Both the position numbers and the translations under genes were made by a program. Below are positions 11,678 to 47,456 of a DNA stretch of 64,000 nucleotides, piece by piece (position 1 is the stretch's first letter; each line of letters opens with the position of its first letter). The notes below the pieces were generated by a model. That model saw only the letters and a list, made by a program, of their open reading frames with translations, made no database searches and had not been told where the DNA came from. Origin of the DNA: Lachnospiraceae bacterium (GTDB lineage Bacteria; Bacillota; Clostridia; Lachnospirales; Lachnospiraceae); NCBI GenBank assembly GCA_900168235.1, contig FUZG01000004.1, forward strand, positions 248,001 to 312,000, read 5' to 3'.

Positions 11678-13681
11678 TTATGCGTTTTTCACGATCACCG
11701 CTAAAATGCGGTTATCTGCAGTTGTAAGTTCAAAGGAATCCATCTTCTTTTTGATAAATTCCATTGCACTGGTCTCCTGAGAGGTAAAATCAGCATTATC
11801 CGAGCCGCCTTTGAAAGTCACGCTCATTTCCAGCTTAAACGCTCGCTCCTTGCTCACGGAGCATACGGACCGTATCCTGCCGCCCTTGGAATATCTGCAT
11901 AACAGCGCAAAAAGCTCCTCCGATGCCACCAGGATCTCTGCGTAGCTCTTTCCTTCGATATTATTCTGCTTCATCTGAAGCTTAAGGAATCCCTGTAGCT
12001 GAGAATAGTTGTTCATTACCGGTGTAAGGATCATCTCCGCAAGTTCCTTATTCGGACGCATGTACTTCATCGCAACGATCAGGATATCCTGCTCGATCTT
12101 ATCACCGCCGCTGAAGTTCACAATATCACTCTCTATGCGTCGGAGATTGTCCTCAACACTCTCACTCCGGCTCTCAAACTGTTCCATGATGCGGATCAGA
12201 TTATCCATGGGATAACCCGCTGCCGCACCGCCTGCAAGACTCGGATCCAGCTTTCTGTCAATGAGGTAGATCCTGTCATACTGCCTGAGCTCGATCCGCT
12301 CAGGAATATAGCTCACATTCTCTGTGATACCGAGAGATTCATAAACTCTTCCCGACAGATTAACGGCTCTGGCTCCCTTCCTCATGATATATGGAGGCGC
12401 ACTTCCGCAGTTAATATACGTAAACGACCCATTCTCCGGATCTATCATGCCGAGGAACAGCCTGATAGGATGATCAGGTCCCACGTTTCTGAATATCTGG
12501 GCATTGATCCTTGTCATGCTGTCCTTGAGGTCACTGTCTGTCATCAGGTAACTTCTGAGGACTGCATGAGTGATAACGAGATACGTCGCAGCAACCATCC
12601 CCACTTCATCGCTGGACGCTGTGATCATATATATCCGTCCAAGCGGATCCTCAAACCAGTCGTAAAAATCACCCGTAGAAGTCCTGAATTTCACAACACG
12701 TCCATCAATGTCCAGGTACAGCTCATTCTTTTTGTTAAAAGGTTCCGGCAGGATAGAAGCTCTCATCTCTGATGCCATCCTGTACTCTGTTAAACGCCTT
12801 TCCTCTTCCGCTGCCCGTTCTATCTGCTCAGTAGTATGTTTCCTGATATTATCTGACAGATGAACAAAAGAGTCATACAAAGTCTCGAGCTCATCATTAG
12901 TTTTGATCTTCTTGTCAAAAGCCGAACCTGAATAGCTTTCGGAATAATCCTCCACCTGCTTCGTCATGATCTGTATAGGTCTGACGACAATAAATTGTAC
13001 AATTATCAATAGCAGGGCGACCAGACAGATCATAACCATGCAGAACTGTCCGACCAGAAAATTTCTCAACCCCTTAGTACTCTCCGTCATTATGAACTCA
13101 TTATTCATGGGAAGTGTCACGTAGGAAATTCCGCACACTTTGTCATTGATAATGATAGGATGCATGACAGAAAGCAGTTTTAATCCTGTGCTTTTTTCGT
13201 ATTCTTCATCCATATACGAAACAGGAGTCTTGTCTCTGATGACGATTCCCGCATTCTCAATATCAATTTTTTCCAGCTCGATCCAGTCCCGGTATGTCAT
13301 TCTATCAAGATCGCCCCCGGTTCCGACAACCAGATATGTACTGTATCCGTCTTCCACTTCCTCAAAACCGATAACGGCGATCATACTCATACTCACAGAT
13401 TCCTTTATCGCTGCGATATCATCCTGAAGCTCTTTATAGTCATTAATATCAACATCTTCTTTATTCTCTGTCAAAAACTGCGGATAGTTATCCTCAACGA
13501 TATCCGAAATATACGATGCGATACCGCTTTCAAATCCCAGATTCTGGTTTAAGGCAGCGCTCATAAACATTCTATAACTGGATTTTCCGATCAAAAAGAT
13601 CAATATTCCGGAAAAAGTGAAGAGCAGCAGTAAAAGTTTCAAATTTAAACGTAATATTTTCTTTTTCTTATCTTTCTGCAT
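11678..13681 (-). CDS. Membrane HAMP protein with degenerate SpoIIE/PP2C domain
   Basis: A 667-residue protein: transmembrane segment (about 13-32), extracytoplasmic sensor part, second segment (about 220-242), HAMP-like linker, then an RsbU-like region. The PP2C signatures are worn: GGDFYD is present as STGDFYDWF, but the metal-binding DVSGKG is replaced by ASSDEVGMVAA, YTDGV by LIDRK, and the final DDIT by EQDI. The C-terminal 120 residues (VASEELFALLCRYSKGGR onward) resemble the fold of RsbW-type anti-sigma kinases without ATP-lid motifs. It is therefore likely a pseudophosphatase-type signalling protein. It is the last gene of the injection-system operon, 15 bases after the repeat-protein gene, so a regulatory role for the particle is inferred. 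Confidence 0.75.
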   Translation of the reverse strand: MQKDKKKKILRLNLKLLLLLFTFSGILIFLIGKSSYRMFMSAALNQNLGFESGIASYISDIVEDNYPQFLTENKEDVDINDYKELQDDIAAIKESVSMSMIAVIGFEEVEDGYSTYLVVGTGGDLDRMTYRDWIELEKIDIENAGIVIRDKTPVSYMDEEYEKSTGLKLLSVMHPIIINDKVCGISYVTLPMNNEFIMTESTKGLRNFLVGQFCMVMICLVALLLIIVQFIVVRPIQIMTKQVEDYSESYSGSAFDKKIKTNDELETLYDSFVHLSDNIRKHTTEQIERAAEEERRLTEYRMASEMRASILPEPFNKKNELYLDIDGRVVKFRTSTGDFYDWFEDPLGRIYMITASSDEVGMVAATYLVITHAVLRSYLMTDSDLKDSMTRINAQIFRNVGPDHPIRLFLGMIDPENGSFTYINCGSAPPYIMRKGARAVNLSGRVYESLGITENVSYIPERIELRQYDRIYLIDRKLDPSLAGGAAAGYPMDNLIRIMEQFESRSESVEDNLRRIESDIVNFSGGDKIEQDILIVAMKYMRPNKELAEMILTPVMNNYSQLQGFLKLQMKQNNIEGKSYAEILVASEELFALLCRYSKGGRIRSVCSVSKERAFKLEMSVTFKGGSDNADFTSQETSAMEFIKKKMDSFELTTADNRILAVIVKNA

Positions 13682-13695
13682 AATCCTGCCTCTGT

Positions 13696-15342
13696 TTATG
13701 CGGATTTATTCTTCGCCTTTTTACCTTTTTTAGGATCAGCTTCATCATCAAGATCGCTGAAGAGCGGTTTCAACCCTGACTTTTCTTCTTCATCATCAAG
13801 ATCGCTGAAGAGCGGTTTCAACCCTGACTTTTCTTCTTCATCATCAATATCACTGAAAAGCGGCTTCAACCCTGACTTTTCTTCTTCATCATCAATATCA
13901 CTGAAAAGCGGCTTCAACCCTGATTTTTCCTCTTCATCCTCAAGATGCGGAAAATCAGCCTCAGCTTTCTTGTTTACATCTTTAGCAGAACCTTTATCCA
14001 AAATTTCTGCTATATCTGACATATCGTCATCTTCAGATTTCTTTGCTATCGGCTCAATATCACTGAAAAGCGGTTTTAATCCCGACTCTTCAGTCTCTTC
14101 ATCCAGATCCTCAAGCTCAAGTCCATCCTCATCATCAATATCGCTGAAAAGCGGCATCAGTCCAGATTCCTCGATTTCTTCATCCTGTGCTTTTGATTCT
14201 GTATTACTCTGCTTTGTCGGATTTTTCTTCTCGGCTTTCTTTGCTTTTTCAGCTTCACGCCTTGCATCAGCTTTCTTATCCAGTTCGTCCTTTTCAAACT
14301 TCTCGCCCTTCATGGACGCTACACCTTCGCGAACCCTCTGCCCGGCTCTGCTGTGCTTTATCCTTCCGGCAAGATCTGTTCCCTCTTCCTTCCGTTTATT
14401 CCATTCCTCCTGTCCATGAATAAGTGTGCCCGCGCCGTTATAAACAGCTTTTGCACCCTTGCTCAAACCATTTCCGATAGCCTTTGCCGCTTTCTTTCCG
14501 TCATTCAGAAGCTTGGAAGGATCGTCTGCGTATTCCTCTATCTTCTTTCCAACCTTGTTTATAACTGTATCACCAAGCTTTTCCAGGCCGTTAGAGAAAA
14601 CATCGGTAAGTTTTCCAAAGAATCCCTTCTTTTCATCCGTCTTCTCTTCTTTCTTATCGTCGCTGTCAGCGTCTTTCCCATCATTCCCGTCCTTGCCGTC
14701 TTTTCCATCTTTACCGCCGCCATTAAAGAGACTTGACAAACCTTCAAGGCTGAACTTATTGGAGAAGATCTGGATCATAGGCTTTGCTTTTTCATCACTG
14801 TTAGCCTTTGCCTTCTTATCATCATCCTTCGCTTCGTCTGCACTTTCTCCGCCCTCAGCTTCCTTTATTTCCTTTTCTAAAACTTCAGCCGCAGTCTGCT
14901 TCTTTTCTTCAGATTCTTCTTTTTCTTCAGCTTTTTCCTCTTTCTTTTTTACCTCTGCATCTCCTGTTGCCTCTGCTTCCTGCTGGATTTCTATTCCTGT
15001 AGATGTTTCATCTTTTTTCGTTTCAGAGGTTTCTGAAGAATCCTTCTTCTTAGCTTCTGCATCACCTGTTTCTTCTGCCTGAGCCTGTATTCCCTCTTCA
15101 GTAGTTTTCGGCAGCTCATCTGTCTGAGTTTCCGCATCTTTTCTATCAGGCTCAGATGTCTGTGTCCCGGCAGAATCTGCTTCCGGTGCTGAAGTCTGTG
15201 TCGCAATATCACTCAGTGCAGAATTTGGGGCATTGTTGTCCTCTGCCTTTATCTCATTTCTTTGCGGCTTATTATTTATGTCCTCAGACTTTCCTTCCGT
15301 CTGCTCCTTTACAGCTTTTTTTAAAATATCCATAAACGGCAT
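13696..15342 (-). CDS. Acidic/lysine-rich protein with six SGLKPLFSDI repeats
   Basis: I do not recognise this 548-residue protein. The first 200 residues are a charged, low-complexity E/K/D/A/T stretch, with a repeated TQTS/AETQTDE flavour. Then come a short collagen-like run GKDGKDGKDGNDGKD (about 207-222), a middle region with amphipathic helices (GKLTDVFSNGLEKLGDTVINK ... is one), and a C-terminal tail with six copies of a ten-residue core, SG-L-K/M-PLFSD-I/L, separated by acidic linkers; the last four are near-perfect 16-residue tandem units. The spaced, identical short motif suggests multivalent docking of one partner, such as a component of the injection particle or the AAA+ ATPase. 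It belongs to the injection operon by spacing. Function unknown. Confidence 0.75.
   Translation of the reverse strand: MPFMDILKKAVKEQTEGKSEDINNKPQRNEIKAEDNNAPNSALSDIATQTSAPEADSAGTQTSEPDRKDAETQTDELPKTTEEGIQAQAEETGDAEAKKKDSSETSETKKDETSTGIEIQQEAEATGDAEVKKKEEKAEEKEESEEKKQTAAEVLEKEIKEAEGGESADEAKDDDKKAKANSDEKAKPMIQIFSNKFSLEGLSSLFNGGGKDGKDGKDGNDGKDADSDDKKEEKTDEKKGFFGKLTDVFSNGLEKLGDTVINKVGKKIEEYADDPSKLLNDGKKAAKAIGNGLSKGAKAVYNGAGTLIHGQEEWNKRKEEGTDLAGRIKHSRAGQRVREGVASMKGEKFEKDELDKKADARREAEKAKKAEKKNPTKQSNTESKAQDEEIEESGLMPLFSDIDDEDGLELEDLDEETEESGLKPLFSDIEPIAKKSEDDDMSDIAEILDKGSAKDVNKKAEADFPHLEDEEEKSGLKPLFSDIDDEEEKSGLKPLFSDIDDEEEKSGLKPLFSDLDDEEEKSGLKPLFSDLDDEADPKKGKKAKNKSA
13751..13942 (-). repeat. 48-bp tandem coding repeat, four copies
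   Basis: Four adjacent 48-base units, in two near-identical pairs, each encoding KSGLKPLFSD(I/L)DDEEE. The pairwise identity (first two units alike, next two alike) points to recent unequal crossing-over. Confidence 0.9.
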
Positions 15343-15366
15343 AACAAACCTCCATTATTCATCATC

Positions 15367-16224
15367 TCAAAGTTTACAAACAGCGCATAACTCTGTTTCC
15401 TTTGAAATCAGCGACTTCCTCGGGAGAAGCTTTTCACATAATCTTATAGCCCCCTTTGATATCGCATCTATGGTAAGTAAAGTATCCTTTGGATACTGCT
15501 TCTGTGCTTCAGTAAGAGCGAGGCTCAGCAGCCTTATTGACGGTCCCTTGCCTCTGTATTCAGGCGGAGAATAAAGTCCTGCAAGCCGGAGACCCGAAGC
15601 ATTCTCCTCACCGATCAGAACGCCCGCAATTTTTTTACCATCTGCAATGAGGAAAGAAATGTCTTTAAGCGGTTTCCTCACATTTAATACATTCACATAT
15701 GCAGGCAGTTCATTCCTGCTGCACATCCCCCTGTAGGTTTCCATGAGGTCAGACGGAGCATCATTAAAGGTATAGTCCTTAAAAGGTATATCAGGATTCG
15801 GTATCTCTGGAATATCACCGACCGCAATGGTAAATCCGTCTGCCGATGCCTTCGGTTCTCCGAATCCGGATCTCGTAAGGATACTCTCATGGTTACTGAG
15901 AGTCTTCCGTGTATAGTGCGCATATATCTCAGTCACACCTTCTTTACGGGCAGTGTTTATGAGTCCTTTCAGGATATAGACCGCGAGACCTATATTCCTG
16001 AATTCAGAATCCACATAAATACTCCTAAGCTCAATAGCATCACCATAGCGCTCTGCCACGGCTGTCCCGCAGATCGTATTCCTCCATACAGCAGAAACTG
16101 CCAGAGTATCCCTGTCCTTCAGGAGATATATTAAATTTTCCGGGATATATGAATAGTAATTTGTCATATCATCCCGCACACGCACGAGGTGCAGAGAATT
16201 TCCCATATCAATATCCTTATTCAT
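15367..16224 (-). CDS. Double GNAT-domain acetyltransferase-like protein
   Basis: A 285-residue protein made of two GNAT folds. The first (about 10-135) has LRSIYVDSEFRNIGLAVYIL, matching the acetyl-CoA loop R-x-x-G-x-A in weaker form; the second (about 140-285) has LAGLYSPPEYRGKGPSIRLL, a clear R-G-x-G-x acetyl-CoA pyrophosphate loop. It would transfer an acyl group to an amine of a small molecule or protein. It overlaps the AAA+ ATPase gene by eight bases, so it is part of the injection operon. Substrate is unknown; acetylation of a particle protein or of cargo is possible. Confidence 0.8.
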   Translation of the reverse strand: MNKDIDMGNSLHLVRVRDDMTNYYSYIPENLIYLLKDRDTLAVSAVWRNTICGTAVAERYGDAIELRSIYVDSEFRNIGLAVYILKGLINTARKEGVTEIYAHYTRKTLSNHESILTRSGFGEPKASADGFTIAVGDIPEIPNPDIPFKDYTFNDAPSDLMETYRGMCSRNELPAYVNVLNVRKPLKDISFLIADGKKIAGVLIGEENASGLRLAGLYSPPEYRGKGPSIRLLSLALTEAQKQYPKDTLLTIDAISKGAIRLCEKLLPRKSLISKETELCAVCKL

Positions 16225-18361
16225 CCAGCAGGTCTGCGTACTCCGCCAGAGTTTCGCGGACTACAACGATACCGTTCTTTCGCATCTCATCAACCGCCGC
16301 ATTTATCATGTGGCGCATTGATACAATGGTTCCTTCCTCTGCTGCGAGGAACGATGCAGAGAGGACGATATTTTTGATATAACCGCCGGACAGCTCAAAT
16401 TTTCCGGCGATGAACTTCCAGTCAATGTCATCAGATAAAGGCATGCCCTTAGGAAATGTCCTGTGGAAGATTTCCTCTCTGGACACTTTGTCCGGGAACG
16501 GGAAATGGACCACAAACGTTATACGCCTGAGGAACGCTTCATCGATATTCTGTAAAAGATTTGTCGCAAGGACGCAGACACCGTCGTATTCCTCTATCTG
16601 CTGTAAGAGGTACGCAGTCTCCACATTCGCATTACGGTCATTAGAATCCTTTACTTCCGAGCTTCTCTTTCCAAAAAGCGAATCACACTCATCGAAAAAC
16701 AGGATACAGTTCGAATTTCTTGCTTCTGAAAAGACCGCCTGAAGATTTTTTTCTGTCTCACCAATATACTTACTAACTATCTGTGACAGGTTTACCTTGT
16801 ACATCTCCATGTTCAGTTCACGTGCGATTATCTGGGCGCACATGGTCTTACCTGTTCCCGGAACACCTGCAAAGAGGATAGATACGCCTGTTCCGTATGT
16901 GAGCTTTTGGCCAAAACCCCACTCACTGTAGATCTTGTGGTGGTATTTCACATGGGCTATAGCCTGTTTCACGAGACGCTTTATTTCATTCGGGATAACG
17001 ATGTCATCCCATGTGTATTTTCCTCTGACACGCCGTGCCAGCTGATCGAGTTTTGTGACTACTTCTCCGTAGCAGCATTCACTGATAGTCTGCGGATCGA
17101 GGGGTGTCCTGTCTACTTCATAGATGCCCAGGGCTCTCCTGCACGCATCACGTACCTGCATGGGTGTAAAGTGAAATTTCACCGCTATCTCATCAACCGC
17201 CGTGTCTTTACTTAGTTCCACATCCTTAAATCCGTACTCAAAAAGCACTATCCTTTCATCAACCGTGGTATCTTCAAGCTCGATACTTATCGCTGAAAGT
17301 GATAAGTGCAGATGAAGTATCTTTTCCGACAAGAGGAAAAGCGGTGATTTCCTTGGCTTAAGCTTTTCAAGCGCAGCTCTTAGCTCATTTACAGGCGGTA
17401 CAGGATTCCCGTCTTCGTACTCTTCCATGCCTTTTATCACGAGAACCGCGTCAAAGAGCCGGCTCAGCATGTCTGCTTCATGAAGAGCTGCGGTTTTATT
17501 ATCAGAAAACTCGAGATCCGCCACCAGTGCTGATGAGCCATTACGCATCGCTGCACTGACTGCCTGATATTCCCGCCCGATACCTTTTCTGCCGGATATC
17601 ATCACCGCACTGTCCGTTATATTAAAAACAGTATCCAGTCTTTTTCCTGTCTCACGCCTTATGAGAAGAGGCATCTCCTTCCCTGCCTTATGGAGAGAAA
17701 ATCCATCAGGCATAAGCTCACTTCCAAAAAGAAATCCGATGACTTCCTTTTTAAGAGCCAGAAGTCCTTTTTTCAGCAGGCTGTCATCAAAAAGTGATAA
17801 AAAAGGTGACGGCTCTATAAACTTCCTCTTCATTTCAGGAATCGGGATCTCATCACCGAAAAGATCTGATACGAAGGATACTTCCGGATTTTTCCGCGCT
17901 ACATCGTCCTGCAGGTAAGCATCTATCTTTCGGTATTTATCCGCATTTTCTGAAAAAAAGCTTAGGAGTACTGTACATTTTTCTGCATAGGAAAGCTCAA
18001 ACCTGCTGAATAAACGCACGAATGGAAACGCATCAGGGTCAGTCGCCCTTAATCGGCTCTCTACCACATCCCTTGCGGCTTTCATGTCCCGCCGCTCATT
18101 TTCGTCGCACTTATCCAGGAGCCGTGCTTCCGAAGCCTTCGACAGATTATGCTCAAACTCATGGCGGGTCACCACGAGTCCCAGCATATTTTTCATATCA
18201 TTTTCAGGTCCGACCCACTGATGGTACTTGTAGTAGAGAAAGAGCCTGTGATCTATCTCTGCTGAAGCGTCATGGAGAAATTCCTCCTGAGTCCCGTAAG
18301 GCTCATTCATCCGGTCCATGCGGATATCTTCATCGTCTATTTCAAGTTCCAGGAGATCCAT
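16217..18361 (-). CDS. AAA+ ATPase of the injection system (Afp15/Pvc15-like)
   Basis: A 714-residue ATPase. The N-terminal 200 residues are helical and specific to this group; a degenerate P-loop domain follows (SGRKGIGRE near 254, arginine in place of the catalytic lysine); the C-terminal AAA+ domain is intact, with Walker A FAGVPGTGKTMCAQ (about 494), NLSQIVSKYIGETEKNL, Walker B ILFFDECDSLFGKR (about 552), and sensor/arginine finger LATNLLQNIDEAFLRR. The same two-AAA layout is found in the ATPase of PVC, Afp and related contractile systems, where it is needed for assembly or release of the particle, though its exact work is unsettled. Its neighbours, the PAAR-like and DUF4255 genes, support the call. 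Confidence 0.9.
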   Translation of the reverse strand: MDLLELEIDDEDIRMDRMNEPYGTQEEFLHDASAEIDHRLFLYYKYHQWVGPENDMKNMLGLVVTRHEFEHNLSKASEARLLDKCDENERRDMKAARDVVESRLRATDPDAFPFVRLFSRFELSYAEKCTVLLSFFSENADKYRKIDAYLQDDVARKNPEVSFVSDLFGDEIPIPEMKRKFIEPSPFLSLFDDSLLKKGLLALKKEVIGFLFGSELMPDGFSLHKAGKEMPLLIRRETGKRLDTVFNITDSAVMISGRKGIGREYQAVSAAMRNGSSALVADLEFSDNKTAALHEADMLSRLFDAVLVIKGMEEYEDGNPVPPVNELRAALEKLKPRKSPLFLLSEKILHLHLSLSAISIELEDTTVDERIVLFEYGFKDVELSKDTAVDEIAVKFHFTPMQVRDACRRALGIYEVDRTPLDPQTISECCYGEVVTKLDQLARRVRGKYTWDDIVIPNEIKRLVKQAIAHVKYHHKIYSEWGFGQKLTYGTGVSILFAGVPGTGKTMCAQIIARELNMEMYKVNLSQIVSKYIGETEKNLQAVFSEARNSNCILFFDECDSLFGKRSSEVKDSNDRNANVETAYLLQQIEEYDGVCVLATNLLQNIDEAFLRRITFVVHFPFPDKVSREEIFHRTFPKGMPLSDDIDWKFIAGKFELSGGYIKNIVLSASFLAAEEGTIVSMRHMINAAVDEMRKNGIVVVRETLAEYADLLDE

Positions 18362-18365: not shown

Positions 18366-18728
18366 TCACCCTATCTTTACGTTCATAGCCGGTGCCATGT
18401 TTACGGTGATCACTCCGCCCATGTTACAGAAAAGCTTTGCATTTTTATTAACTGCAGGCTTTCCTCCGATCTTTACCGTCATAGAAGCAGGTGTCCACGG
18501 TGCTGTGATCTGCGCTGCGGCAAGACACGGTCCCGGAACTCCCGTTGCCATGGATGGCTGCATAGGACTGATACATGTGCCGAACATGAAGGGTTTATTG
18601 TCATTTAGAACCGCTGCCGACATGCAGCAGAATTTAACGTTCGGAACCGAAGTCATTGCTATCGGAAACGGAACCGAACCAAAAGAACACTTACATACAC
18701 ATCCTTGTGTGACAGGATTTGCCCCCAT
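18366..18728 (-). CDS. DUF4280 PAAR-like spike-tip protein
   Basis: A 120-residue DUF4280 protein: the opening ANPVTQGCVCKCSFGS, the middle FCCMSAAVLNDNKPFMFGTC, PWTPASMTVKIGGKPA and the end FCNMGGVITV match this PAAR-like family. In contractile systems such proteins cap the spike and may carry effectors. Seven or eight cysteines are visible, many paired (CVCKC, CCM), which suits a metal-bound or disulfide-stabilised tip. It lies between the ATPase gene and the unknown 226-residue gene. No toxin domain is fused to it. Confidence 0.88.
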   Translation of the reverse strand: MGANPVTQGCVCKCSFGSVPFPIAMTSVPNVKFCCMSAAVLNDNKPFMFGTCISPMQPSMATGVPGPCLAAAQITAPWTPASMTVKIGGKPAVNKNAKLFCNMGGVITVNMAPAMNVKIG

Positions 18729-18756: not shown

Positions 18757-19437
18757 TTATTCAGCATGGATCTCTACAGGCACTTTTCCATCATCCTTAA
18801 AAACCTGTATTGTATCTGCTTTACGGAATACTGCCTCTGCCTTTCCGCCTTCTGCCCTGAAGTGCTGCGCCGGTATAAATCTCGTCCCACGCTTATGAGC
18901 ATACTTTAACGGCATAGTGAAATTTGCTTTTCCTTCGTCAAGCATCTCTATACACACGATCTCTGACTTTTTCCCGTCCAGTATCAGGAAGTTATCAGGA
19001 TATCCGTGTGTTGAAAAAGCAGCAGATGCAAAAACATTTGCTTCTGTCACTCCTTCATCCGCTTTATCCTCAGCGACTTTGAGTTCCATACCCTCTATAT
19101 CCGATGCAGCCCAGACAGAATCAATATCGCACTCTATCTCATAGTGCCGGGCATCCACCCCGTATCTGTAATGTTCTCCGGGTTTTAAGGTCACGACCTG
19201 AACTGCCGGATGCTCCGACGAGTTAAACATTATTAACTCATCCTGATAAAGATAGCCATATATCCTCAATGTATGTTCTCCACTTTCAAGATTCAGGAAT
19301 ACAAAGTATCCATCTCCCTTGGATAAAGGTTTTACAGGAAGCCCGTCTATTTCTGCCTTAAAGGCGCCCATTGGAACAGGCTTTCCGGTAAAACCGTCCG
19401 TGATCCTGAAAACTGCACTTACCCTGATATTTATCAT
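18757..19437 (-). CDS. Unknown injection-system protein with carboxypeptidase-regulatory-like start
   Basis: A 226-residue protein, not recognised as a named family. The first 80 residues (VSAVFRITDGFTGKPVPMG ... GYFVFLNLESGEHTLRIYG) read like a small beta-sandwich of the carboxypeptidase-regulatory/transthyretin type, often found in surface and tail proteins. The rest is mixed alpha/beta with no motif. Its gene sits between the DUF4255 cap gene (four-base overlap) and the DUF4280 tip gene, so it is very likely a structural or accessory part of the particle. Confidence 0.6.
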   Translation of the reverse strand: MINIRVSAVFRITDGFTGKPVPMGAFKAEIDGLPVKPLSKGDGYFVFLNLESGEHTLRIYGYLYQDELIMFNSSEHPAVQVVTLKPGEHYRYGVDARHYEIECDIDSVWAASDIEGMELKVAEDKADEGVTEANVFASAAFSTHGYPDNFLILDGKKSEIVCIEMLDEGKANFTMPLKYAHKRGTRFIPAQHFRAEGGKAEAVFRKADTIQVFKDDGKVPVEIHAE

Positions 19438-20021
19438 ATGCTGGCCTGCGCTTTCTGATCCAATGTAAGAGTCGCATCCGTAACACGGCTGATCTTCTTT
19501 GTACGCTTGGAGCTTATTGCGATTCCCGTAGCTTTCACCACAAAGGACGCCTTGTATGGTGTCTGGGTGTTGTTCCAGATCTTCATCATTTTTTCAAAGT
19601 CATTATTTTCTATCTCCAGATGAATGTTTGACTGATCCGACACAAGTGACCCGTTCAGATAATTGTCAGTTATTGTCGGCATGTCAGCTATCGCCTGTAT
19701 AGCCGCCCCAAGTATCCTGTAGGTATCAGCTTCTTTTAACTGGACCGGTGCCTTGGAATGAGCTGTTATGAGATAGTAGGCATTTACTATGGACGGAGCC
19801 ATTTCCATCTTGGTGGGACCCACGGTCCTGTACTTAGGCGTGTCAAACTGGGTATCCATTTCCACATGATACAGATGGACCGTGAGCTGGTTATTATCTT
19901 CCTCATATGGCGTACAGAGAGATATCATTTCCCTCTTACTCACAGGTTCAGGAGTAAGAGCGTCCCTTAATATCTCAGTGATCGCATTTCCTGTTTCATA
20001 GATTGCCGTATAATCCGCCAT
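19434..20021 (-). CDS. DUF4255 (Pvc16 N-terminal) tail-terminator/cap protein
   Basis: A 195-residue member of the DUF4255 family found in eCIS loci (Afp16/Pvc16). Visible family features: AITEILRDAL near the N terminus, NQLTVHLYHVEMDTQF, SIVNAYYLITAHS, and ADTYRILGAAIQAIADMPTI. In Afp the protein caps the end of tube and sheath and sets particle length. The length fits the core domain only. It follows the MORN-protein gene by 12 bases and overlaps the next gene by four. Confidence 0.88.
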   Translation of the reverse strand: MADYTAIYETGNAITEILRDALTPEPVSKREMISLCTPYEEDNNQLTVHLYHVEMDTQFDTPKYRTVGPTKMEMAPSIVNAYYLITAHSKAPVQLKEADTYRILGAAIQAIADMPTITDNYLNGSLVSDQSNIHLEIENNDFEKMMKIWNNTQTPYKASFVVKATGIAISSKRTKKISRVTDATLTLDQKAQASI

Positions 20022-36630: not shown

Positions 36631-37365
36631 CTATTCGATAGCAGGAACACGTATCAGTTCACCGCTCCGAAGTGTCCTCGGATTACTGATCTTATTTGCT
36701 CCCGCTATGGCTCTCCACTGATCCGGATCTCCGTATTCCGATGCTGCGAATGACCATAAAGACTGTCCTTCCTCCACTGTACGGAATTTTGCAGTATCCG
36801 GTGAACCGAAGGGATTTGTTTTTACCTTTGCATTCACCTTCATGAAGCGGAAAAATACGCAGTCCATGGTTGCGCGGACAGGTATGCCGAGATCACTGAA
36901 CTTTGTGAGATTCACGTTGCAGCTCTTTAGGAATCCTTCAAACTGCAGGCTCGACCACTCGATCTTTACGAGAGGCGGTATATGAGCACTAGGCTCTATC
37001 TGCATCAGGTTATAGACTTTATCAGTCATCTTTCTCACATCAAAGAACTTCGCAACAGAGTTTATCCGCTTATTTGCTTCCAGCTCAACTCCTTCTGATA
37101 CTGAAGGAGCATTTTTTACTCCTGTGGAAAAGGTGTCAAAGAAAAGCTGCATGGAGAGCGTTTCCACAGTTCCATATGTGAACTGCACTGCCGGCGCATC
37201 GGAATCTAATGCAGGATCCATACCAAACTCAGCATTTTTTGTGAGCTGGTAAGTTGTAGGATTATACTCCACATAGAAATTCTTCTTTGTGATCATGTTT
37301 GTGATCTTCATTTTTTTGACCGGAGTATTCATGTTTAAATTACCGGAACCTACAAACACAGGCAC
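36631..37365 (-). CDS. LysM-domain tube-baseplate protein (Afp7/Pvc7-like)
   Basis: A 244-residue protein of the eCIS tube-protein group. The N-terminal domain (NFYVEYNPTTYQLTKNAEFG ... TLSMQLFFDTFSTG) is the typical start of Afp7-type and phage gp53-like proteins; the last 50 residues form a LysM module (FRTVEEGQSLWSFAASEYGD ... LRSGELIRVPAIE). In T4 the gp53-like LysM protein binds the hub and holds the wedges. It lies between the 1421-residue gene and the hub gene. Confidence 0.9.
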   Translation of the reverse strand: MPVFVGSGNLNMNTPVKKMKITNMITKKNFYVEYNPTTYQLTKNAEFGMDPALDSDAPAVQFTYGTVETLSMQLFFDTFSTGVKNAPSVSEGVELEANKRINSVAKFFDVRKMTDKVYNLMQIEPSAHIPPLVKIEWSSLQFEGFLKSCNVNLTKFSDLGIPVRATMDCVFFRFMKVNAKVKTNPFGSPDTAKFRTVEEGQSLWSFAASEYGDPDQWRAIAGANKISNPRTLRSGELIRVPAIE

Positions 37366-40300: not shown

Positions 40301-41636
40301 GAACATTTTTTTGCTCATCATCATTCGTCAGCACCAGATCTGTTAATTCCGCAGGCTCATATCCCGAAAGATACGGGTTTGCACCATGCTCTGCTGATGA
40401 CTCTCCGTTTAGTTCACTATTTTTCAGGATATCGTGGTCAACAGAGATTCCTTCCGGGCTCTCCATTGCTTCTGTAACAGCTATATTTCTTGCGGTGAGA
40501 TTCAGTATGTTCTTATCACTTACAGGATGCTCTTCGTTCTGACTCTTCCCATGAACAGATAAATTTTCTTTATCATTATTTCTGTCCTGTGAAGAAGCTT
40601 TATCAGAAAGACCGTATCCATCCTGCCGGATCATACTTATATTTTCTGATTCCCTTTTGCTTCCTGTCTCTCTACTGTCCTCTATACCGCTTCTGTTTTC
40701 TGCCTCTGTTCTGCTTTCTGCCCCTCTTGAGCTTTCTGTCTCTCTTCTGTATTCTGCCTTTTTACTGCTTTCTGTCCCTCTTCTGTTTTGTACCGCTCTT
40801 GAGCTTTCTGACTCTGTTCTGCTTTCTGCCTCTCCAGAGCTTTCTGTCGCTCCTCTGTTTTCTCTCCCTTTACCTTTTTCCGGCTCTCTTCTATGCTCTG
40901 ACTCGTTTCTGCTTTCCAGCTCTCTTTTACTGCCAACTCCTCTTTTTCTGTCTTCCAATCTGACATGTTCAGGACTTCTGCCAACTTCATAAACCCGCTC
41001 ATTATCAGATTCTCTGCCGATGACTACGGTATTTTTATACTCCGTGAGCCTGTCCTTACCGGGAACTCCGCTCTGAAGCTTTGTGAGTTCCTGTGCTTCT
41101 TTCATCTTTAATTCACGGATACGCTTCACCGTAGGCGATACTCCGTATCTGGAATTGCTTTCCAGATTTGTTCGGCTCCGTTCCAGTATCCGCTTCTCAG
41201 TCTCTATGAGCTTCTGCTTTTCATGTATCACCCGAAGCCGTTCTCTGGTCACTATGTCGAGATCTGACTTCTCAGCCTGCTTTTCTTTTTCTCTGTCTTT
41301 TATGATTCTGTCCGCTTTATCCAGTATCGCCAGCTCTTCCGCCTTGAGCGCGGACGTCTCTCTCTCCAGCGCATGGAGATGGGCGATCACCATCTCAAAA
41401 GTCAGGTCATAGTTCAGATTTATCTGCGTCGGAGAAAACTTCTTTTCTTCGCTTTCCTGACCTTCCTGCAGGTAATCAAGCTCAGCATATGGCACAAAAG
41501 CCTGCTCTCCCATGTTTCTGTCGATTATCTGCTGGGTGAAGCTTTCTACCAGAAGCGCCTCAGGACTGATGAGATTCGCCGGGTCTATCACAGACATATT
41601 TAATTTTGTCAGTGCAATAGAACCATCTTCCCTCAA
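37371..41636 (-). CDS. Very long disordered/coiled-coil protein in tape-measure position
   Basis: A 1421-residue protein without a recognised family. Residues 1-75 form a small folded start (LNMSVIDPANLISPEALLVE ... INLNYDLTFEMV), followed by a coiled coil (about 80-190). The long middle is S/N/Q/E/R-rich and repetitive: RETESSRGAE-like, VNQNA/VNQSA-like and SQAGRTSQQVNA tandem units. A lysine/glutamate coiled coil sits near 880-970. The module RDITILEAQKQYE-M/L-LTGK occurs twice, each time followed by an acidic patch ending DDEQ or NGEE. The last 40 residues are strongly basic and helical. By position between tube and LysM/hub genes it could be the tape measure; by composition it could be a cargo carrier inside the tube. 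Its start overlaps the tube gene by four bases. Confidence 0.7.
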   Translation of the reverse strand: MREDGSIALTKLNMSVIDPANLISPEALLVESFTQQIIDRNMGEQAFVPYAELDYLQEGQESEEKKFSPTQINLNYDLTFEMVIAHLHALERETSALKAEELAILDKADRIIKDREKEKQAEKSDLDIVTRERLRVIHEKQKLIETEKRILERSRTNLESNSRYGVSPTVKRIRELKMKEAQELTKLQSGVPGKDRLTEYKNTVVIGRESDNERVYEVGRSPEHVRLEDRKRGVGSKRELESRNESEHRREPEKGKGRENRGATESSGEAESRTESESSRAVQNRRGTESSKKAEYRRETESSRGAESRTEAENRSGIEDSRETGSKRESENISMIRQDGYGLSDKASSQDRNNDKENLSVHGKSQNEEHPVSDKNILNLTARNIAVTEAMESPEGISVDHDILKNSELNGESSAEHGANPYLSGYEPAELTDLVLTNDDEQKNVRSSRQKNDRIGSDAKARDISYQRRQGNLNDLSNDQIHDQNRNSANAGENVQSRNSVSSRENAQSGYSVSSRENIQNRSTAKVIDNPQNRNNADSSEFAKGRSSSVTSDRSQHSFTRKAASTITELMNKLRKETAVGSGMSTVGENGYSKASANVRTLDRIGDAGLSSDAERKHSEYHGLDTESYKSVNQNAVTDNSKTVNQSADAENNRLVNQSIGAVNSNPVNQNTGAENNKPENQSSYTENEITSNKSIDTDGNNAVGQSINTERINEIDRVHRGLIESSVRDITILEAQKQYEMLTGKRITGVLDTADAESKADYLRETGDYGVIELDDLELNNGEETDGRNIKKSGSHQADSDDRSNQHHEIRRSDAGYIDINSGDIGKAAKQTESALENAEQVVKQAERTDKEAKKTARQAEDKLKHAEQISKQAEDKLRNAEQISKKADDTVKKAEESAEQAKKAVLDVQKTASRKDSSLSADEAAKSASPAGNISESGDDNRNTSNAYSAETSAHNRTVTDSNKLNKTTKSRINEEMPTSIRDITILEAQKQYELLTGKKITSGFSDDSESHGMDNILSNQMAYAPEELSNLQIHSDDEQAHSVQGASRSETRSAETRTGANEPHRTTGQNRRSSDSQKRGTQSISDENIAQKNVHSTSQQVSASQAGRTSQQVNASQAGRTSQQVSASQAGRTSQQVNASQTGRTSQQASAAQTASLSQSGHALQTALSPQAGRSSQKALSSIQGLAPQNGLVPQSGLIPQSEQFSKIVLASQPGFPSRTAPESRIMSTEQYIPISMDYGTSYPEILKTVISREIEAGNLAPLSGTVQERKALTPAEKFMRGEVEEVTVDDTPAMQSWVNPMQGTANISSPFSPVQNPMINGVPHMQRQGMNTMHADEAVRQMSQGNQMNWINPAFTGYGMPESLEYKQPGRPDDDQQSGRRRTEVKISEAEVRRTADRVFKMVEERIRKERRRIGRI
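38191..38334 (-). repeat. 36-bp tandem coding repeat, four copies
   Basis: GATGTACGTCCTG recurs at 38191, 38227, 38263 and 38299, marking four 36-base units that each encode a 12-residue SQ(A/T)GRTSQQV(S/N)A block in the 1421-residue protein. Two unit types alternate, so copy number probably changes by slippage of pairs. Confidence 0.9.
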
Positions 41637-42070
41637 GTGCAGCCTCCATACATGATCACTATCCTGCTTATAGCAAGCGACGGCGCGTTACTGTTAAGCG
41701 TCGGTCCGCTGTAGCTCACCAGAACCGCATCATTTATCTTCCATGTCCGGACTTTTTTCCCTGTAGCATCCTTCAGTGTGATCTCACCGTCAGTCGGGAC
41801 GCTGATTCCTGAATTGACCGATTTTATCCAGTCTGCAAACGCATCTGTATCGGTCACTGTTCCCTGCTCCAGAACGAGCTGCTGGGGAATGCCGTTATCC
41901 AGCAGAAAATGCGGTGCCATTGAACCACCCTCATAATAAGTCTGGTAGTTCACCGCCATTCCAAGTCCGCTTACGGAAGTAAATTTTCCGCTCAAACCGG
42001 ACACTCCTCCAATCGAAACCTCGAAATAGGCGCCGGAAACATATTTATTCATATCTATCTGTTCCTGCAT
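41633..42070 (-). CDS. Tube protein, T4 gp19-like (third tube-family gene)
   Basis: A 145-residue gp19/Hcp-like tube protein. FEVSIGGVSGLSGKFTSVSGLGMAV is the usual strand pair, and the C-terminal SLAISRIVIMYGGCT completes the barrel. In PVC/Afp, three tube-type genes exist: one for the main tube and others for the layers next to the hub. As the last of the three here, it is probably a tube-initiation layer (Afp5/6-like). It is followed with overlap by the 1421-residue gene. Confidence 0.88.
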   Translation of the reverse strand: MQEQIDMNKYVSGAYFEVSIGGVSGLSGKFTSVSGLGMAVNYQTYYEGGSMAPHFLLDNGIPQQLVLEQGTVTDTDAFADWIKSVNSGISVPTDGEITLKDATGKKVRTWKINDAVLVSYSGPTLNSNAPSLAISRIVIMYGGCT

Positions 42071-42082: not shown

Positions 42083-42607
42083 TTATTTCTTGTTATTTGC
42101 ATTATCCTCTGCTTCTTTACCGGGAGCCCGTCTTTCAAAGCCGGAATATGCAAATTCCACGGATTCCATGAGGACTTCACTGTTTAAGGCACTCATGTTT
42201 CCGAGTGTATATGCCACGGGATACGCACCGTAAAGATCCCATGCGACCCCCTCTTTTCCTTCATCCGTCATCACCACTATGTGGATGGTCTTACGTACTG
42301 CCTTTTTTTCATCAGGTCCTTTTTCAAAAGACGGAAAACACCCAAGAACCCAGTCGAGGAACCTGTTTCCAAAGGTCACTCCGCGGGTCAGCACCAGATT
42401 ACTGTACTCAACGGTAGCAGGTACTACGCCCTGCGCACCGCGATCGTCCGCACCGCTTCTCATCCGGAGTACATGGTTCACGACCTTGATACCCGAACAC
42501 TGCGCAAAAGCTGCATCCTCCGGTTCGCTTTCACCATCCTTTGTATATCCTTCGCCGCTCAGAGTCACCCTGAACCGAAAGGAACGTAAAAGTTCATCAT
42601 CCGCCAT
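42083..42607 (-). CDS. Tube-family protein (second gp19-like gene)
   Basis: A 174-residue gp19-like protein: SFRFRVTLSGEGYTKDGE, FAQCSGIKVVNHVLRMRSGAD, NLVLTRGVTFGNRFLDWVLG and NSEVLMESVEFAYSGFERR follow the tube-fold pattern, with an insertion and a charged tail. It is probably one of the adapter tube layers between main tube and hub. It follows the DUF6760 gene by about ten bases and precedes the third tube gene. Confidence 0.82.
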   Translation of the reverse strand: MADDELLRSFRFRVTLSGEGYTKDGESEPEDAAFAQCSGIKVVNHVLRMRSGADDRGAQGVVPATVEYSNLVLTRGVTFGNRFLDWVLGCFPSFEKGPDEKKAVRKTIHIVVMTDEGKEGVAWDLYGAYPVAYTLGNMSALNSEVLMESVEFAYSGFERRAPGKEAEDNANNKK

Positions 42608-42616
42608 AGTTCACCT

Positions 42617-42811
42617 TTATTTCAGTTCAAACTTATTATTTTCATCTCCGCTGAGTTTCCTGTTGATGACAGAAATCTCTCTGCACCACCTTCGACGCTC
42701 CCGATGATCCATATTCATGAGATCATCCTGATTCCAGTGCAGATAGTAGGCAAGGAACGCCATCTCCTCGTAGAGCCTGTCCGGTGGATAGCTTACAAGC
42801 CCTGATTCAAT
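42617..42811 (-). CDS. DUF6760 family small eCIS protein
   Basis: A small protein of about 60 residues with the DUF6760 core SYPPDRLYEEMAFLAYYLHW followed by the helix DHRERRRWCREISVINRKL. DUF6760 proteins occur almost only between tube genes of eCIS loci; their role is unknown. No ATG, GTG or TTG exists in frame before the conserved core: the frame opens after a TGA and the only usual bacterial option is ATT at 42811-42809, or initiation by coupling at the end of the overlapping upstream gene. The start is therefore uncertain, and a rare start codon may keep expression low. Confidence 0.8.
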   Translation of the reverse strand: MESGLVSYPPDRLYEEMAFLAYYLHWNQDDLMNMDHRERRRWCREISVINRKLSGDENNKFELK

Positions 42812-43161
42812 AAAAAATCCAGCGGAACTTCAAATTCTTTTCCGCATTCGGGACATGTCACCTTGTATGAGGGCATCTCCTTCATGTTTATTCTCTGGTA
42901 AAAATCCTGCAGATACGCGAGATCCATGGTAAACAGATTCTCTATCACCTGATTTGTGACTTTCTGCAGTGTTCCAAGCTCTGTTATCACTCTGGACAGC
43001 AGAACTATAGTCAGATACGACGAATTGGCCTGCACTCTCGGATCTCTAAGCGGAAGTATCTCATCCGCAGCTGTTGCAAGCCTCATTTTTCCGGTTTTAT
43101 GAACCGCTCCTGAGGCATCTACATAGCCCTTCGGAAGTTCAAATTCAAATTCTGTCTGCAT
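42793..43161 (-). CDS. T4-baseplate/tail-assembly-type protein with zinc ribbon
   Basis: A 122-residue protein seen in eCIS loci after the main tube gene (Pvc6-type region, T4 baseplate family). The N terminus is FEFELPKGYVDASGAVHKTG, then MRLATAADEILPLRDPRV, typical for phage tail-assembly-chaperone-like proteins; the end has CPECGKEFEVPLDF, half of a zinc ribbon. It probably helps assemble tube or baseplate. Its end overlaps DUF6760, hinting at coupled translation. Confidence 0.8.
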   Translation of the reverse strand: MQTEFEFELPKGYVDASGAVHKTGKMRLATAADEILPLRDPRVQANSSYLTIVLLSRVITELGTLQKVTNQVIENLFTMDLAYLQDFYQRINMKEMPSYKVTCPECGKEFEVPLDFLLNQGL

Positions 43162-43217: not shown

Positions 43218-43243
43218 AGGGCGCAGATAAAACTGCGCCCTGC
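43218..43243. other. Perfect intercistronic hairpin after the main tube gene
   Basis: CAGGGCGCAG and CTGCGCCCTG pair over 10 bp with a 6-base loop, located 20 bases after the stop of the main tube gene. No T-run follows on the minus strand, so it is more likely an RNA-stability or partial-termination element than a full terminator. Confidence 0.65.
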
Positions 43244-43262
43244 TTTTAAGCAGCAATCGTCA

Positions 43263-43748
43263 TCAGATAGGTGACGGTGTTCCTGCTTCTGCACCTGCAT
43301 TTGTTCTCCAGAGACCCTCATGGCAGATCTCAAGAGACTGGATAGCTACTTCATTTCCGAGACCGGAAAGATCCGGAACATTGTAACTAACCGGCCATGC
43401 ATTGATGAGAGTCCACTCAGGACCGTTTGCATCACCTGCATCATCAAAAAGCGTAATGACAATGTCATGACGCACAATTCCAGAAGGGCCAGCCTCATTA
43501 TTCGGAGCAACAGAATGGATCCAGTCAAGGAAGTCCATATCTGTAGTAACACCCCAGCGAAGAGTAATATTTCCGAATGTTGTGAGTCCGGGAAGCTTAC
43601 GCGGTGTATTTCTAAGATCATCACCTTCGCGGTATTCAACGGCTGCGGTCGCCATATTCATTCCGGAAACTTCAGAGAAGCTTGCACGGGCGATACCATC
43701 GATCGTTACCTGATACCGAAACACTCTATACGGATAATTAATAGCCAT
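43263..43748 (-). CDS. Main inner-tube protein, gp19-like (Afp1-like)
   Basis: A 161-residue tube protein. FRYQVTIDGIARASFSEVSGM, YREGDDLRNTPRKLPGLTTFGNITLRWGVT and NEVAIQSLEICHEGLWR are the standard pattern of the first tube gene in eCIS. It stacks in hexameric rings to make the tube that the sheath drives out. It is directly after the sheath gene and is separated from later genes by a hairpin, which would favour high expression. Confidence 0.92.
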   Translation of the reverse strand: MAINYPYRVFRYQVTIDGIARASFSEVSGMNMATAAVEYREGDDLRNTPRKLPGLTTFGNITLRWGVTTDMDFLDWIHSVAPNNEAGPSGIVRHDIVITLFDDAGDANGPEWTLINAWPVSYNVPDLSGLGNEVAIQSLEICHEGLWRTNAGAEAGTPSPI

Positions 43749-43781
43749 TGTCTAATCCCTCATTTCCTTTCCGTGTTTTTA

Positions 43782-45560
43782 TCATTCAGATGCTGTCTTC
43801 TGAGTAATCCTGAAGATTACAAATTCAGCAGGTTTAACAGGAGCAATTCCTATGTTGCAGATCAGTCTTCCGTTATCGATATCATCCTGAGTCATTGTTG
43901 TAGGTCCGCACTCTACGTAATAAGCCTGCTCAGGTGCCGTGCCTGCAAGAGCTCCGTCTCTCCAGCAGGTTGCCAGGAAGGACTGGATGGTTCTTGTAAC
44001 TCTCGACCAGAGAACTTCTGAATTAGGCTCAAATACAACCCAGTTTGTATTGTTCTTGATAGACTGCTCTACATAGATGAAGAGTCTTCTTACGTTGACA
44101 TACTTCCAGAGACCATTGGAACTCAATGTCCTTGCGCCCCATACACGGATTCCTCGTCCTGTAAATGCACGGATCAGGTTTACGCCGATCGGATTCAGGA
44201 TATCCTGCTCAGCATCGTTATAGCTGCAAGAGAGTCCTGTGCATCCGGATACGATCTCATTTGCCGGAGCCTTATGTACGCCGCGGTCGGTATCAACTCT
44301 TGCGTAGATACCTGCCATTGCGCCGGACGGCGGGAAGAAAGCTGTGCGCTTGAGAAGCGGATCCAGCATTTCAAGCCACGGGTGATAGATAGCAGCATAA
44401 GTGCTGTCATACATATCACGGAAAGCAGAGATCTCATCCACCTTCTTCTTATCAATAGGAATATCCAAAATTGCGAAGCAGCTGGTCTTGTTCTCGCAGA
44501 AAGCGATCAGTGTAGACTGAACCGTAGGATCTGTGACACCTGGGATCGCCATGATGGATACATTGTTGTTTTCGATAAATGCCTGGAGTCCTGTACGCTT
44601 TCCGGGACCATTATCAGCACCGATGTAAACATCAGGTGTGATCTTTCCGGTTGCGCCGTCAGAACCGCCTGCAAGTGTTACAGAAACTTCTGCATCAGCT
44701 CCGCCGAGCTGTGCGATAGGTGAAGGATTGGACGCATTTGCAGGAGCCGGTGCGGGCTTATTATCCTTTCCGTCCTTTCCATCCTTGCCCTTTTCGGCTG
44801 CGGGTGCTGCCGGGGCTGCAGATGCCTTTACGCTGAAATTAACGATCTCGGACTTCTCAGCACGGATACCGATGTAATTTGTAGCGAAAGGATTCAGAGA
44901 AACATCAGCAAATGTTTCCTCTGTCTCATCAACCTTTACGGTCACTGTTACTTCACATGTACGGATGTACTTCTGAGTAACGATAGCCTTGTCAGCTACA
45001 TCGATGCCCGGTGCAGCTTCCAGTGTGACAGTCTTATCCATAACTGACTTAACTGTCGCATACGCTTTTTTAGAGCCATCATAAAGCTCGACAACATCAC
45101 CTGCATTAAATCCATCCGGATTCTTTACAGTGAGATCTGCACCTGTTGCAGAATAAACCTGAGTCTTCGCCTTGGATGACGGAACAGCAGTGATCTTTAT
45201 GCGATTTCCCCATTCACCGGGATTAGCTGCCTCTGCATGAAGCACGCCGAGATCTCCGGATGAAGCTTTTGCATCATCAGGAGCAACTCTCATGATGTAT
45301 GCACGGGAACCGCCATTAAGGAAAAACTGCTCTACAGCGTATGGCAGAAATCTTGCGTCACCGTATCTGGCATCGCTTAAATAACCGCCATAAATTCGCT
45401 TGTAATCAGCAAAGCTGGTTACAAACTGTGGAGCTCCAACTACTGCACCGCGTTCTGCAAGTCCGATGAATCCTGCTGTGCTTGTGCTGACGCCCTGCAT
45501 CGGCACTGCGCCGGAGTCGTATTCTTCCACATATACGCCCGGATGTAAATACTCTGCCAT
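43782..45560 (-). CDS. Contractile sheath protein
   Basis: A sheath protein of about 592 residues. MAEYLHPGVYVEEYDSG, TSTAGFIGLAERG and GGYLSDARYGD at the start and DDIDNGRLICNIGIAPVKPAEFV at the end are the hallmarks of eCIS/T4-like sheaths; only one sheath gene is present, against three in Afp. A stretch rich in A, P and GKDGKDGKD (about residues 245-280) is inserted, likely as a surface loop. I chose the ATG that gives the family N terminus; a TTG at 45590, eight or nine bases after AGGAGG, would add ten residues and may be the true start. The frame stays open further up, overlapping the preceding gene, which is not believable as coding. Confidence 0.93.
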   Translation of the reverse strand: MAEYLHPGVYVEEYDSGAVPMQGVSTSTAGFIGLAERGAVVGAPQFVTSFADYKRIYGGYLSDARYGDARFLPYAVEQFFLNGGSRAYIMRVAPDDAKASSGDLGVLHAEAANPGEWGNRIKITAVPSSKAKTQVYSATGADLTVKNPDGFNAGDVVELYDGSKKAYATVKSVMDKTVTLEAAPGIDVADKAIVTQKYIRTCEVTVTVKVDETEETFADVSLNPFATNYIGIRAEKSEIVNFSVKASAAPAAPAAEKGKDGKDGKDNKPAPAPANASNPSPIAQLGGADAEVSVTLAGGSDGATGKITPDVYIGADNGPGKRTGLQAFIENNNVSIMAIPGVTDPTVQSTLIAFCENKTSCFAILDIPIDKKKVDEISAFRDMYDSTYAAIYHPWLEMLDPLLKRTAFFPPSGAMAGIYARVDTDRGVHKAPANEIVSGCTGLSCSYNDAEQDILNPIGVNLIRAFTGRGIRVWGARTLSSNGLWKYVNVRRLFIYVEQSIKNNTNWVVFEPNSEVLWSRVTRTIQSFLATCWRDGALAGTAPEQAYYVECGPTTMTQDDIDNGRLICNIGIAPVKPAEFVIFRITQKTASE

Positions 45561-45627
45561 TCTCTTTCTGTCCCCCATAAGCTGACGCAAAGGGACAATC
45601 CTCCTTCCCTTATGGATAAAGTAAAGT

Positions 45628-46363: not shown

Positions 46364-46392
46364 CCCTGTTCTTCATCCCAGGCATTCCTGCC

Positions 46393-47379: not shown

Positions 47380-47398
47380 TGTATCATCCCCTCATAAA

Positions 47399-47435
47399 TG
47401 TACAATTATTTGTATACACCCGAGGTTATTGTACA
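47399..47435 (-). promoter_or_regulatory. Dyad TGTACAAT / ATTGTACA in the operon leader
   Basis: TGTACAAT (47399-47406) and ATTGTACA (47428-47435) are an exact 8-bp inverted repeat with a small GTATAC palindrome between. The right half covers the -10 box of the operon promoter, so it is a candidate operator. Confidence 0.5.
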
Positions 47436-47456
47436 TTCACTCCCTATACTGTGCAA
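47428..47456 (-). promoter_or_regulatory. Promoter of the injection-system operon
   Basis: Minus strand: TTGCAC (47456-47451), 17-base spacer, TACAAT (47433-47428). The start would be about 45 bases before the ATT of the first gene. Confidence 0.55.

Follow-up and report, generated by a model that had tools for sequence, protein, structure and literature searches.

The described contractile injection systems (CIS) that come closest to the locus reported here are those of haloarchaea, Anabaena and Streptomyces, together with the released extracellular CIS (eCIS) of the Afp/PVC type. The haloarchaeal CIS (Halogeometricum; 'archaeal T6SS', after the type VI secretion system) is membrane-bound and always has one extra membrane gene in one subgroup of loci, a gene that is missing from another subgroup (PMC11566945), and the thylakoid-anchored CIS (tCIS) is anchored through Cis12 and the Cis13 fibre, with a transmembrane helix (PMC8894136). 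In Streptomyces, a separate membrane protein (CisA) is required for firing (PMC12237407). Here we describe a CIS operon in a 64,000-nucleotide stretch (hereafter, the window) from a Lachnospiraceae bacterium (assembly GCA_900168235.1, contig FUZG01000004.1, positions 248,001 to 312,000), in which the particle genes are accompanied by a conserved block of three genes that we call KIN (kinase-like), CYC (cyclase-like) and MORN (after its repeats).

The locus shares with each of these systems some features and differs in others. As in the haloarchaeal loci, a core goes together with membrane genes, but one six-helix protein fills this place there, as described in that report, and kinase-, cyclase-, MORN- and TolC-like proteins fill it here, in Clostridia of the Gram-positive type. 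The core parts of the Anabaena tCIS are present, and the N-terminus of the crown candidate (gene 26450, after its first position in the window) bears a faint likeness, below significance, to Cis19; no Cis13-like protein is detected by Pfam among the operon proteins and there are no thylakoids. The Streptomyces CisA system likewise has a Gram-positive producer; its membrane component, by its description, is one bitopic protein outside the particle with other domain content. Finally, sheath, tubes, spike, gp25, J proteins, DUF4255 cap and AAA+ ATPase are shared with Afp/PVC, but no tail-fibre family is seen in this operon, and a membrane/sensor block stands inside it. Conserved membrane proteins that accompany the core, as in the membrane-anchored systems (tCIS, archaeal T6SS, CisA-dependent), are represented here by MORN and CYC. 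We found no description of the KIN-CYC-MORN block in the open-licence literature searched, which does not show its absence from print.

Results

Co-occurrence of the block with the particle genes

The operon at 11678-47100 comprises 27 genes, all on the minus strand, and encodes a CIS core: sheath, three tubes, hub, spike, gp25, two J proteins, PAAR-like tip, DUF4255 cap and AAA+ ATPase (Table 1). Every core reading frame is open, and 24 of the 26 intergenic gaps range from -50 to +67 bases (the remaining two are 185 and 101). The Pfam families thus bear out the core in one tightly spaced minus-strand operon that the initial annotation of this DNA had recognized. Its finer calls fared unevenly in our scans (all operon proteins against Pfam, tail genes also against PHROG): the gpV spike is clear, the LysM and split-spike hub matches are below the cutoff, and the I protein is recognized by PHROG only.

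A set of 299 genomes of the family was profile-searched three times, for the sheath (E <= 1e-40), 26450 (E <= 1e-10) and KIN (E <= 1e-5). The sheath was found in 27 genomes, 26450 in 26 and KIN in 33, the last made up of 23 strong matches (E < 1e-20) and ten weak ones (E from 7e-9 to 8e-6; most are partial matches, and the frames measure 273-618 amino acids (aa)), which we took as ordinary kinases and did not count. Sheath and 26450 occur together in 24 genomes; strong KIN is present in 23 of these, and no comparably strong KIN match occurs elsewhere. The sole genome with sheath and 26450 that lacks KIN (G006) is 67% complete, and its contig stops 136 bases past 26450. The sheath stands without 26450 in G046 (no other core gene within about 16-18 kb on each side), G253 (where a single tube gene accompanies the sheath) and G233 (where the usual neighbours are present on a contig of 3.8 kb), and 26450 without the sheath in G146, where it is located at the contig end, and in G163, where a shortened 26450 is followed by the ATPase and the PAAR-like gene on a 13 kb contig. 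That is, no full core without KIN was seen in the family sample, and G163 is a reduced locus that points the opposite way.

Gene order was counted where at least 9.5 kb followed 26450, in the family loci and in a set of 80 named loci, all chosen for holding 26450; this kept 17 of 25 family loci and 57 of 80 named loci and dropped 8 (G163 among them) and 23, respectively. The 17 family loci carry KIN in 17 cases, MORN in 17 (16 by hidden Markov model plus the window by Pfam), CYC in 14, DUF4255 in 14 and a TolC-like gene in ten, with the fused MORN protein of the window counted as one. Among the 57 named loci the numbers are 57 for CYC and MORN, 56 for DUF4255, 53 for KIN, 47 for the ATPase (within 14 kb) and five for the TolC-like gene; four loci lack KIN on the strand where it is expected, but two of them, from Heliorestis (L203 and L208), have it inverted, between 26450 and CYC. 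The KIN-CYC-MORN order, between the crown and cap genes, is kept in most named loci, and the three genes are found together with the core in Lachnospiraceae, Oscillospiraceae and Heliorestis, the order of the core genes itself being maintained across many genera. The initial annotation had placed five extra genes in the proposed syntenic set. The counts above agree with this for KIN, MORN and CYC, and a SpoIIE-type gene follows the ATPase in nine of ten downstream stretches read, often plus a second copy; the fifth gene, SGLK (named after its repeat), is found in only 5 of 17 genomes. Counts from the PP2C models are not used since the CYC, PP2C and PP2Cup models lost their separation through sensor and HAMP parts that they share.

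Because the KIN family had initially been assembled partly by position, we ran a blind search with a KIN model built from 17 relatives, with the window's clade excluded, on the 12,339 frames of the window and the 80 named loci. It returned 72 significant frames in 72 of the 81 loci, each at most 400 bases from 26450, including the KIN of the window (E 6e-7). The reverse model (15 sequences of the window kind) recovered ten KIN frames of the family at E < 1e-3 and missed others. As all loci were selected for 26450, the blind search shows adjacency and does not address cores without the extra genes.

Such cores do exist farther away. In a set of 308 genomes of the phylum (sheath E <= 1e-30, 26450 E <= 1e-6), the sheath was found in 12 genomes and 26450 in 12, three of them in the C-terminal domain only. 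Three genomes (G401, G479, G592) hold a core with a 26450-like N-terminus, DUF4255 and ATPase, and their stretches gave no match to KIN, CYC, MORN or the TolC-like family; the 26450-like protein runs on into collagen-like, PTIRPTI-type repeats in G401 and G479 and extends into fibre-like repeats in G592. KIN and MORN are present in G499; more distant or partial cores in G311, G582, G494 and G461 have no block matches, and the contig of G388 ends inside 26450. The initial annotation had named cores that lack the extra genes at random as the outcome that would speak against a single system. The block-free cores that we observed form a separate, distant Bacillota set and do not turn up here and there in close relatives. 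A tree built from one J protein (45 rows) has a branch (support 96/88) with all KIN-bearing loci, and also G388 and L186, to one side; G592 and G311 sit on long branches. Labelling the loci by whether they carry a block gene at all requires three changes on this tree, and never one in 200 bootstrap trees, two of the causes being the truncated G388 and G415, which has CYC and MORN without KIN.

The J protein of the window clusters with those of MC2017, MA2020 and Oscillospiraceae-type loci, and the 17 family loci of the tree fall in another, well-supported set (98/96), with Heliorestis and G388. Among 39 genomes of the window's genus, 27 match 26450, never twice per genome, and the scores fall into two classes, five at the level of the window (E <= 1e-215) and 21 near 1e-160, besides one partial match. 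It is a reasonable inference that one locus type may have been replaced by the other.

Protein features of the block and of the crown candidate

The likeness of KIN to protein kinases, which had been proposed for its N-lobe, holds for the family profile. Compared with the serine/threonine kinases of the relatives, the profile reached 92% in hhalign (E 5e-7, 132 columns, from the N-lobe to the catalytic loop region), and kinases or kinase fusions made up 58 of the 60 listed matches in the Protein Data Bank (PDB; best E 4e-4). The window protein has no Pfam match of its own, and none of 18 members searched singly matched a kinase family, so that only profiles detect the resemblance. Catalytic motifs are rare among 94 KIN matches (H[RG]D in one, D[FLWI]G in six, GxGxxG in none), and the DLG of the window protein sits in the N-terminal half, away from the DFG position; KIN therefore looks catalytically degenerate on the basis of its sequence, a reading new to this work. 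A clear hydrophobic segment is found in 25 of 98 KIN matches and an IGT tail in 22 of 98, and KIN of the window type ends in a basic tail (e.g., RKVRRRR). KIN was also compared with EssB/YukC of type VII secretion, which it resembles in the kinase-like domain and, in some relatives, in a transmembrane helix after it. This identification was rejected: none of 18 members matches PF10140 in Pfam, and the hhalign alignment covers the transmembrane stretch only (probability 1.9%).

For CYC, the class III cyclase assignment comes likewise from the family profile, which matches PDB cyclases at E 2e-11; the window protein alone has no Pfam match, and its four hydrophobic segments agree with the membrane protein proposed initially. 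Among 12 relatives, HAMP is matched in six and Guanylate_cyc in five. Read by eye, 11 of the 12 members, that of the window among them, lack the first metal-binding aspartate, and the window protein keeps the second aspartate position (HDG). CYC, too, thus looks catalytically degenerate, which has not been part of the earlier reading.

MORN was correctly called as a membrane protein with MORN repeats. Beyond this, its C-terminus is, by profile comparison, a TolC-like region, as first recognized here: the C-terminal profile matches a separate TolC-like family of other loci (hhalign 92%, E 7e-7), and the OEP family is matched by the MORN C-termini of eight of 11 relatives and by nine of 15 proteins in a mixed set (ten TolC-like and five neighbouring proteins). 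A hydrophobic segment is carried by 92 of 93 MORN and 93 of 94 CYC family matches.

The N-terminus of 26450 resembles, faintly and colinearly, Cis19 (All3314) of the Anabaena tCIS. All3314 is the best PDB match of the 26450 profile at E 0.013, and it falls to second place, at E 0.14, with a broader alignment; hence we treat the likeness as a lead only. The weight given to 26450, the TolC-like MORN C-terminus, the GNAT-type gene at 15367 and the small gene at 45628-46062 all go beyond the initial annotation.

Operon layout, remaining genes and surroundings

The window belongs to a 3.79 Mb genome (G000, contig C13), which in gene 26450 shares 87% identity with the nearest records that carry a name, Lachnospiraceae bacterium MC2017 and NK4A144. 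Ahead of the first gene of the operon 480 bases are free; promoter and terminator scans there gave numbers about chance, and 3' of the operon slightly above chance. The sheath probably starts with MAEYLHPG at 45560, not with the TTG at 45734. Of the three small genes at the operon start, 46013 and 46393 match only the window among the family loci; 45628-46062, a 144-aa frame with a 50-base overlap with its neighbour, looks like a genuine small protein. The zinc-ribbon protein at 42793 occurs in many family CIS loci, and the 1421-aa protein (neither a Pfam nor a PHROG match) is recognizable in a few close relatives only. Relatives of the CIS ATPase occur in G079, G149, G054, G146 and other loci in stretches without nearby CIS genes, and some CIS loci carry two ATPases.

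Table 1. Genes of the operon, from its first gene to its last.
Feature	Position	Strand	Evidence
Three small genes, operon start	45628-46062, 46013-46363, 46393-47100	-	no Pfam match
Contractile sheath	43782..45560	-	Phage_sheath_1 PF04984 E 2e-21; sheath_1C PF17482 E 7e-19
Tube protein 1	43263..43748	-	Phage_T4_gp19 E 6e-39
Small zinc-ribbon tail assembly protein	42793..43161	-	phrog_508 tail assembly chaperone E 2e-8
Tube protein 2	42083..42607	-	Phage_T4_gp19 E 8e-25
Tube protein 3	41633..42070	-	Phage_T4_gp19 E 1e-19
1421-aa low-complexity protein, tape-measure candidate by position only	37371..41636	-	between tube and hub genes
CIS_tube/LysM hub-tube adaptor	36631..37365	-	CIS_tube PF19266 E 1e-25; LysM below cutoff
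Spike hub, first half of split spike	35487..36608	-	YQBQ E 2e-5, GPD E 0.002, both below cutoff
gpV-type spike, second half	34694..35482	-	Phage_base_V E 3e-16
gp25 baseplate wedge	34284..34685	-	GPW_gp25 E 5e-20
J protein, Cis11/Afp11-like position	31360..34287	-	Baseplate_J E 8e-5; phrog_219 baseplate wedge E 3e-14
Second J protein	29314..31347	-	Baseplate_J E 2e-14
I-type baseplate periphery protein	28206..29306	-	phrog_521 tail protein E 4e-6; no Pfam match
Crown candidate (26450), conserved N-terminal and Ig-like C-terminal domains	26450..28213	-	family alignments
KIN, kinase-like, basic C-terminal tail, no clear transmembrane helix	25690..26433	-	family profile
CYC, membrane sensor, degenerate class III cyclase domain, C-terminal TPR-like region	23168..25693	-	family profile
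MORN protein, one hydrophobic segment near residue 90, MORN repeats, TolC-like helical C-terminus	20034..23126	-	MORN E 9e-13
DUF4255/Pvc16 cap	19434..20021	-	Pvc16_N E 3e-22
Conserved protein beside DUF4255 and PAAR-like genes	18757..19437	-	no Pfam match; in 14/17 family, 51/57 named loci
PAAR-like spike tip	18366..18728	-	DUF4280 E 2e-14
AAA+ ATPase with winged-helix domain	16217..18361	-	AAA E 2e-30, WHD E 6e-12
GNAT-type protein	15367..16224	-	Acetyltransf_1 E 3e-12; same place in L264-L266
SGLK, disordered, lysine/glutamate-rich, cargo candidate	13696..15342	-	six SGLKPLF-type repeats including one SGLMPLF
SpoIIE/PP2C-type membrane protein	11678..13681	-	SpoIIE E 2e-14; two hydrophobic segments

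The SGLKPLF repeat that had drawn attention initially is present in six copies in the window, but none of the five SGLK homologues, all from close kin, has it; what the homologues have in common is lysine-rich amphipathic stretches. SGLK lies between the GNAT and SpoIIE-type genes in all three stretches read. As eCIS effectors are usually at the 3' end (PMC8213781), this position near the 3' end of the operon suits a cargo, and our guess is that SGLK may be one. The remaining extra, the PP2C-type membrane protein, was identified as such from the start, and its SpoIIE match and two hydrophobic segments agree.

In L270 (Flavonifractor sp. An306, 2358-4424), a STAS protein and a MATE-like transporter stand between the CIS ATPase and the SpoIIE-type gene, which suggests a partner-switching module beside the CIS. 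The window itself has a second, strongly matching SpoIIE-type membrane phosphatase (6090-9336, E 2e-49), whose neighbour is a divergent methyl-accepting-chemotaxis-like protein. The DNA at 10067-11359, immediately downstream of the operon, encodes a RecF/AAA-type ATPase along with a fragment that looks like a nuclease and matches the C-terminal end of PADLOC PDC-S27 (E 2e-41), possibly a reduced defence element. The extra genes were also considered as a defence system and this was rejected, PADLOC having matched only a generic ATPase domain and two genes downstream of the operon. At 53296-55263 the window encodes a 655-aa protein that resembles flagellin and has a long insert in its middle.

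Discussion

We lean towards the view that the particle docks at, and fires from, a station in the cytoplasmic membrane of its own producer, by analogy with the membrane-bound systems described above. In favour of this view are the way KIN tracks the core, the near-universal hydrophobic segments of MORN and CYC, the TolC-like part, the lack (by Pfam) of lysis and tail-fibre families among the operon proteins, and the collagen-like or fibre-like tails of the 26450-like proteins in loci that have no block. From the genes, the conservation of the block, the domain resemblances and the predicted hydrophobic segments we infer docking, sensing, a sleeve, firing and its outward direction as follows. 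The particle would be assembled in the cytoplasm and then dock at the station, with 26450 forming a crown around the baseplate that contacts KIN. KIN would serve as a kinase-like adaptor at the inner face of the membrane, held by the transmembrane helix in some relatives and perhaps by the basic tail in the window. CYC may sense an external cue and relay it through its membrane segments to the degenerate cyclase and TPR-like region by the baseplate, and this relay would release firing. MORN would extend outside the membrane, its TolC-like helical part acting as a sleeve in which the tube is guided or braced on its way across the thick wall, and the SpoIIE-type protein probably sets threshold or timing.

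Several observations weigh against this view. Conserved gene order alone also fits a purely regulatory block. The 6 kb after 26450 in G163 hold no KIN, CYC or MORN, KIN is absent from L181 and L186 and from G415 and G589 (which have CYC and MORN), and CYC was not found in three of 17 family loci. The KIN of the window and 72 of 97 other KIN matches (one a fragment) have no clear transmembrane helix; by hydrophobicity the window KIN is not a clear membrane protein. The C-terminus of the window's MORN alone has no match to OEP, and the likeness of 26450 to Cis19 is below significance.

Alternatively, the particle might dock in the same way but fire into the producer's own membrane, as a stress-triggered cell-death device with CYC as the stress checkpoint, which we judge to be unlikely. 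The precedent is what has been proposed for CisA in Streptomyces, where the CIS reside in the cytoplasm and depend on a membrane protein that is bitopic and has a sensor-like domain on the outside (PMC12237407). The sensor architecture of CYC would suit such a role, and so would the lack of any fibre family among the operon proteins (by Pfam; a fibre of an undescribed kind is possible). However, Streptomyces is multicellular, unlike most carriers of these loci, which are unicellular gut bacteria, and an extracellular TolC-like part is easier to explain by an outward path.

It is similarly improbable, in our judgement, that the particle is an ordinary released eCIS and the block merely a signalling module for its production or release. 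Degenerate kinase, cyclase and SpoIIE-type domains are of regulatory kinds, a STAS protein and a second SpoIIE-type gene adjoin some relatives, and regulators are common near eCIS (PMC8213781). Such a module would nevertheless have to be reconciled with the position of KIN, CYC and MORN inside the structural operon, between the crown and cap genes in most loci, with the structural look of MORN and its TolC-like part, and with Pfam scans that found neither lysis nor fibre families among the operon proteins. Nor was any family of the TssJLM-type membrane complex of type VI secretion systems i-iii found among them. Finally, that the locus is what remains of a prophage or tailocin in decay, next to genes that have nothing to do with it, is very improbable in spite of the phage-tail-like core genes, since the gene order is conserved across many genera, all core frames are open and Pfam found no capsid or packaging family among the scanned operon proteins.

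If docking at the producer's membrane is the right reading, a further claim could be made, which we advance only tentatively: this would be the first described envelope-anchored CIS of Gram-positive bacteria, docked by its crown at a station of degenerate enzymes and firing outward across the cell wall via a TolC-like sleeve, and its carriers would be numerous gut Clostridia absent from the CIS bearers named in earlier gut surveys. A metagenome survey reports that human-gut CIS are predominantly of Bacteroidota, with a single case in Proteobacteria (PMC12210884). CIS would thereby extend to common gut Clostridia such as Anaerotruncus colihominis, Flavonifractor, Oscillibacter and Agathobaculum. 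The conserved block provides a short list of candidate parts for a station that could mount a contractile machine in a thick Gram-positive wall.

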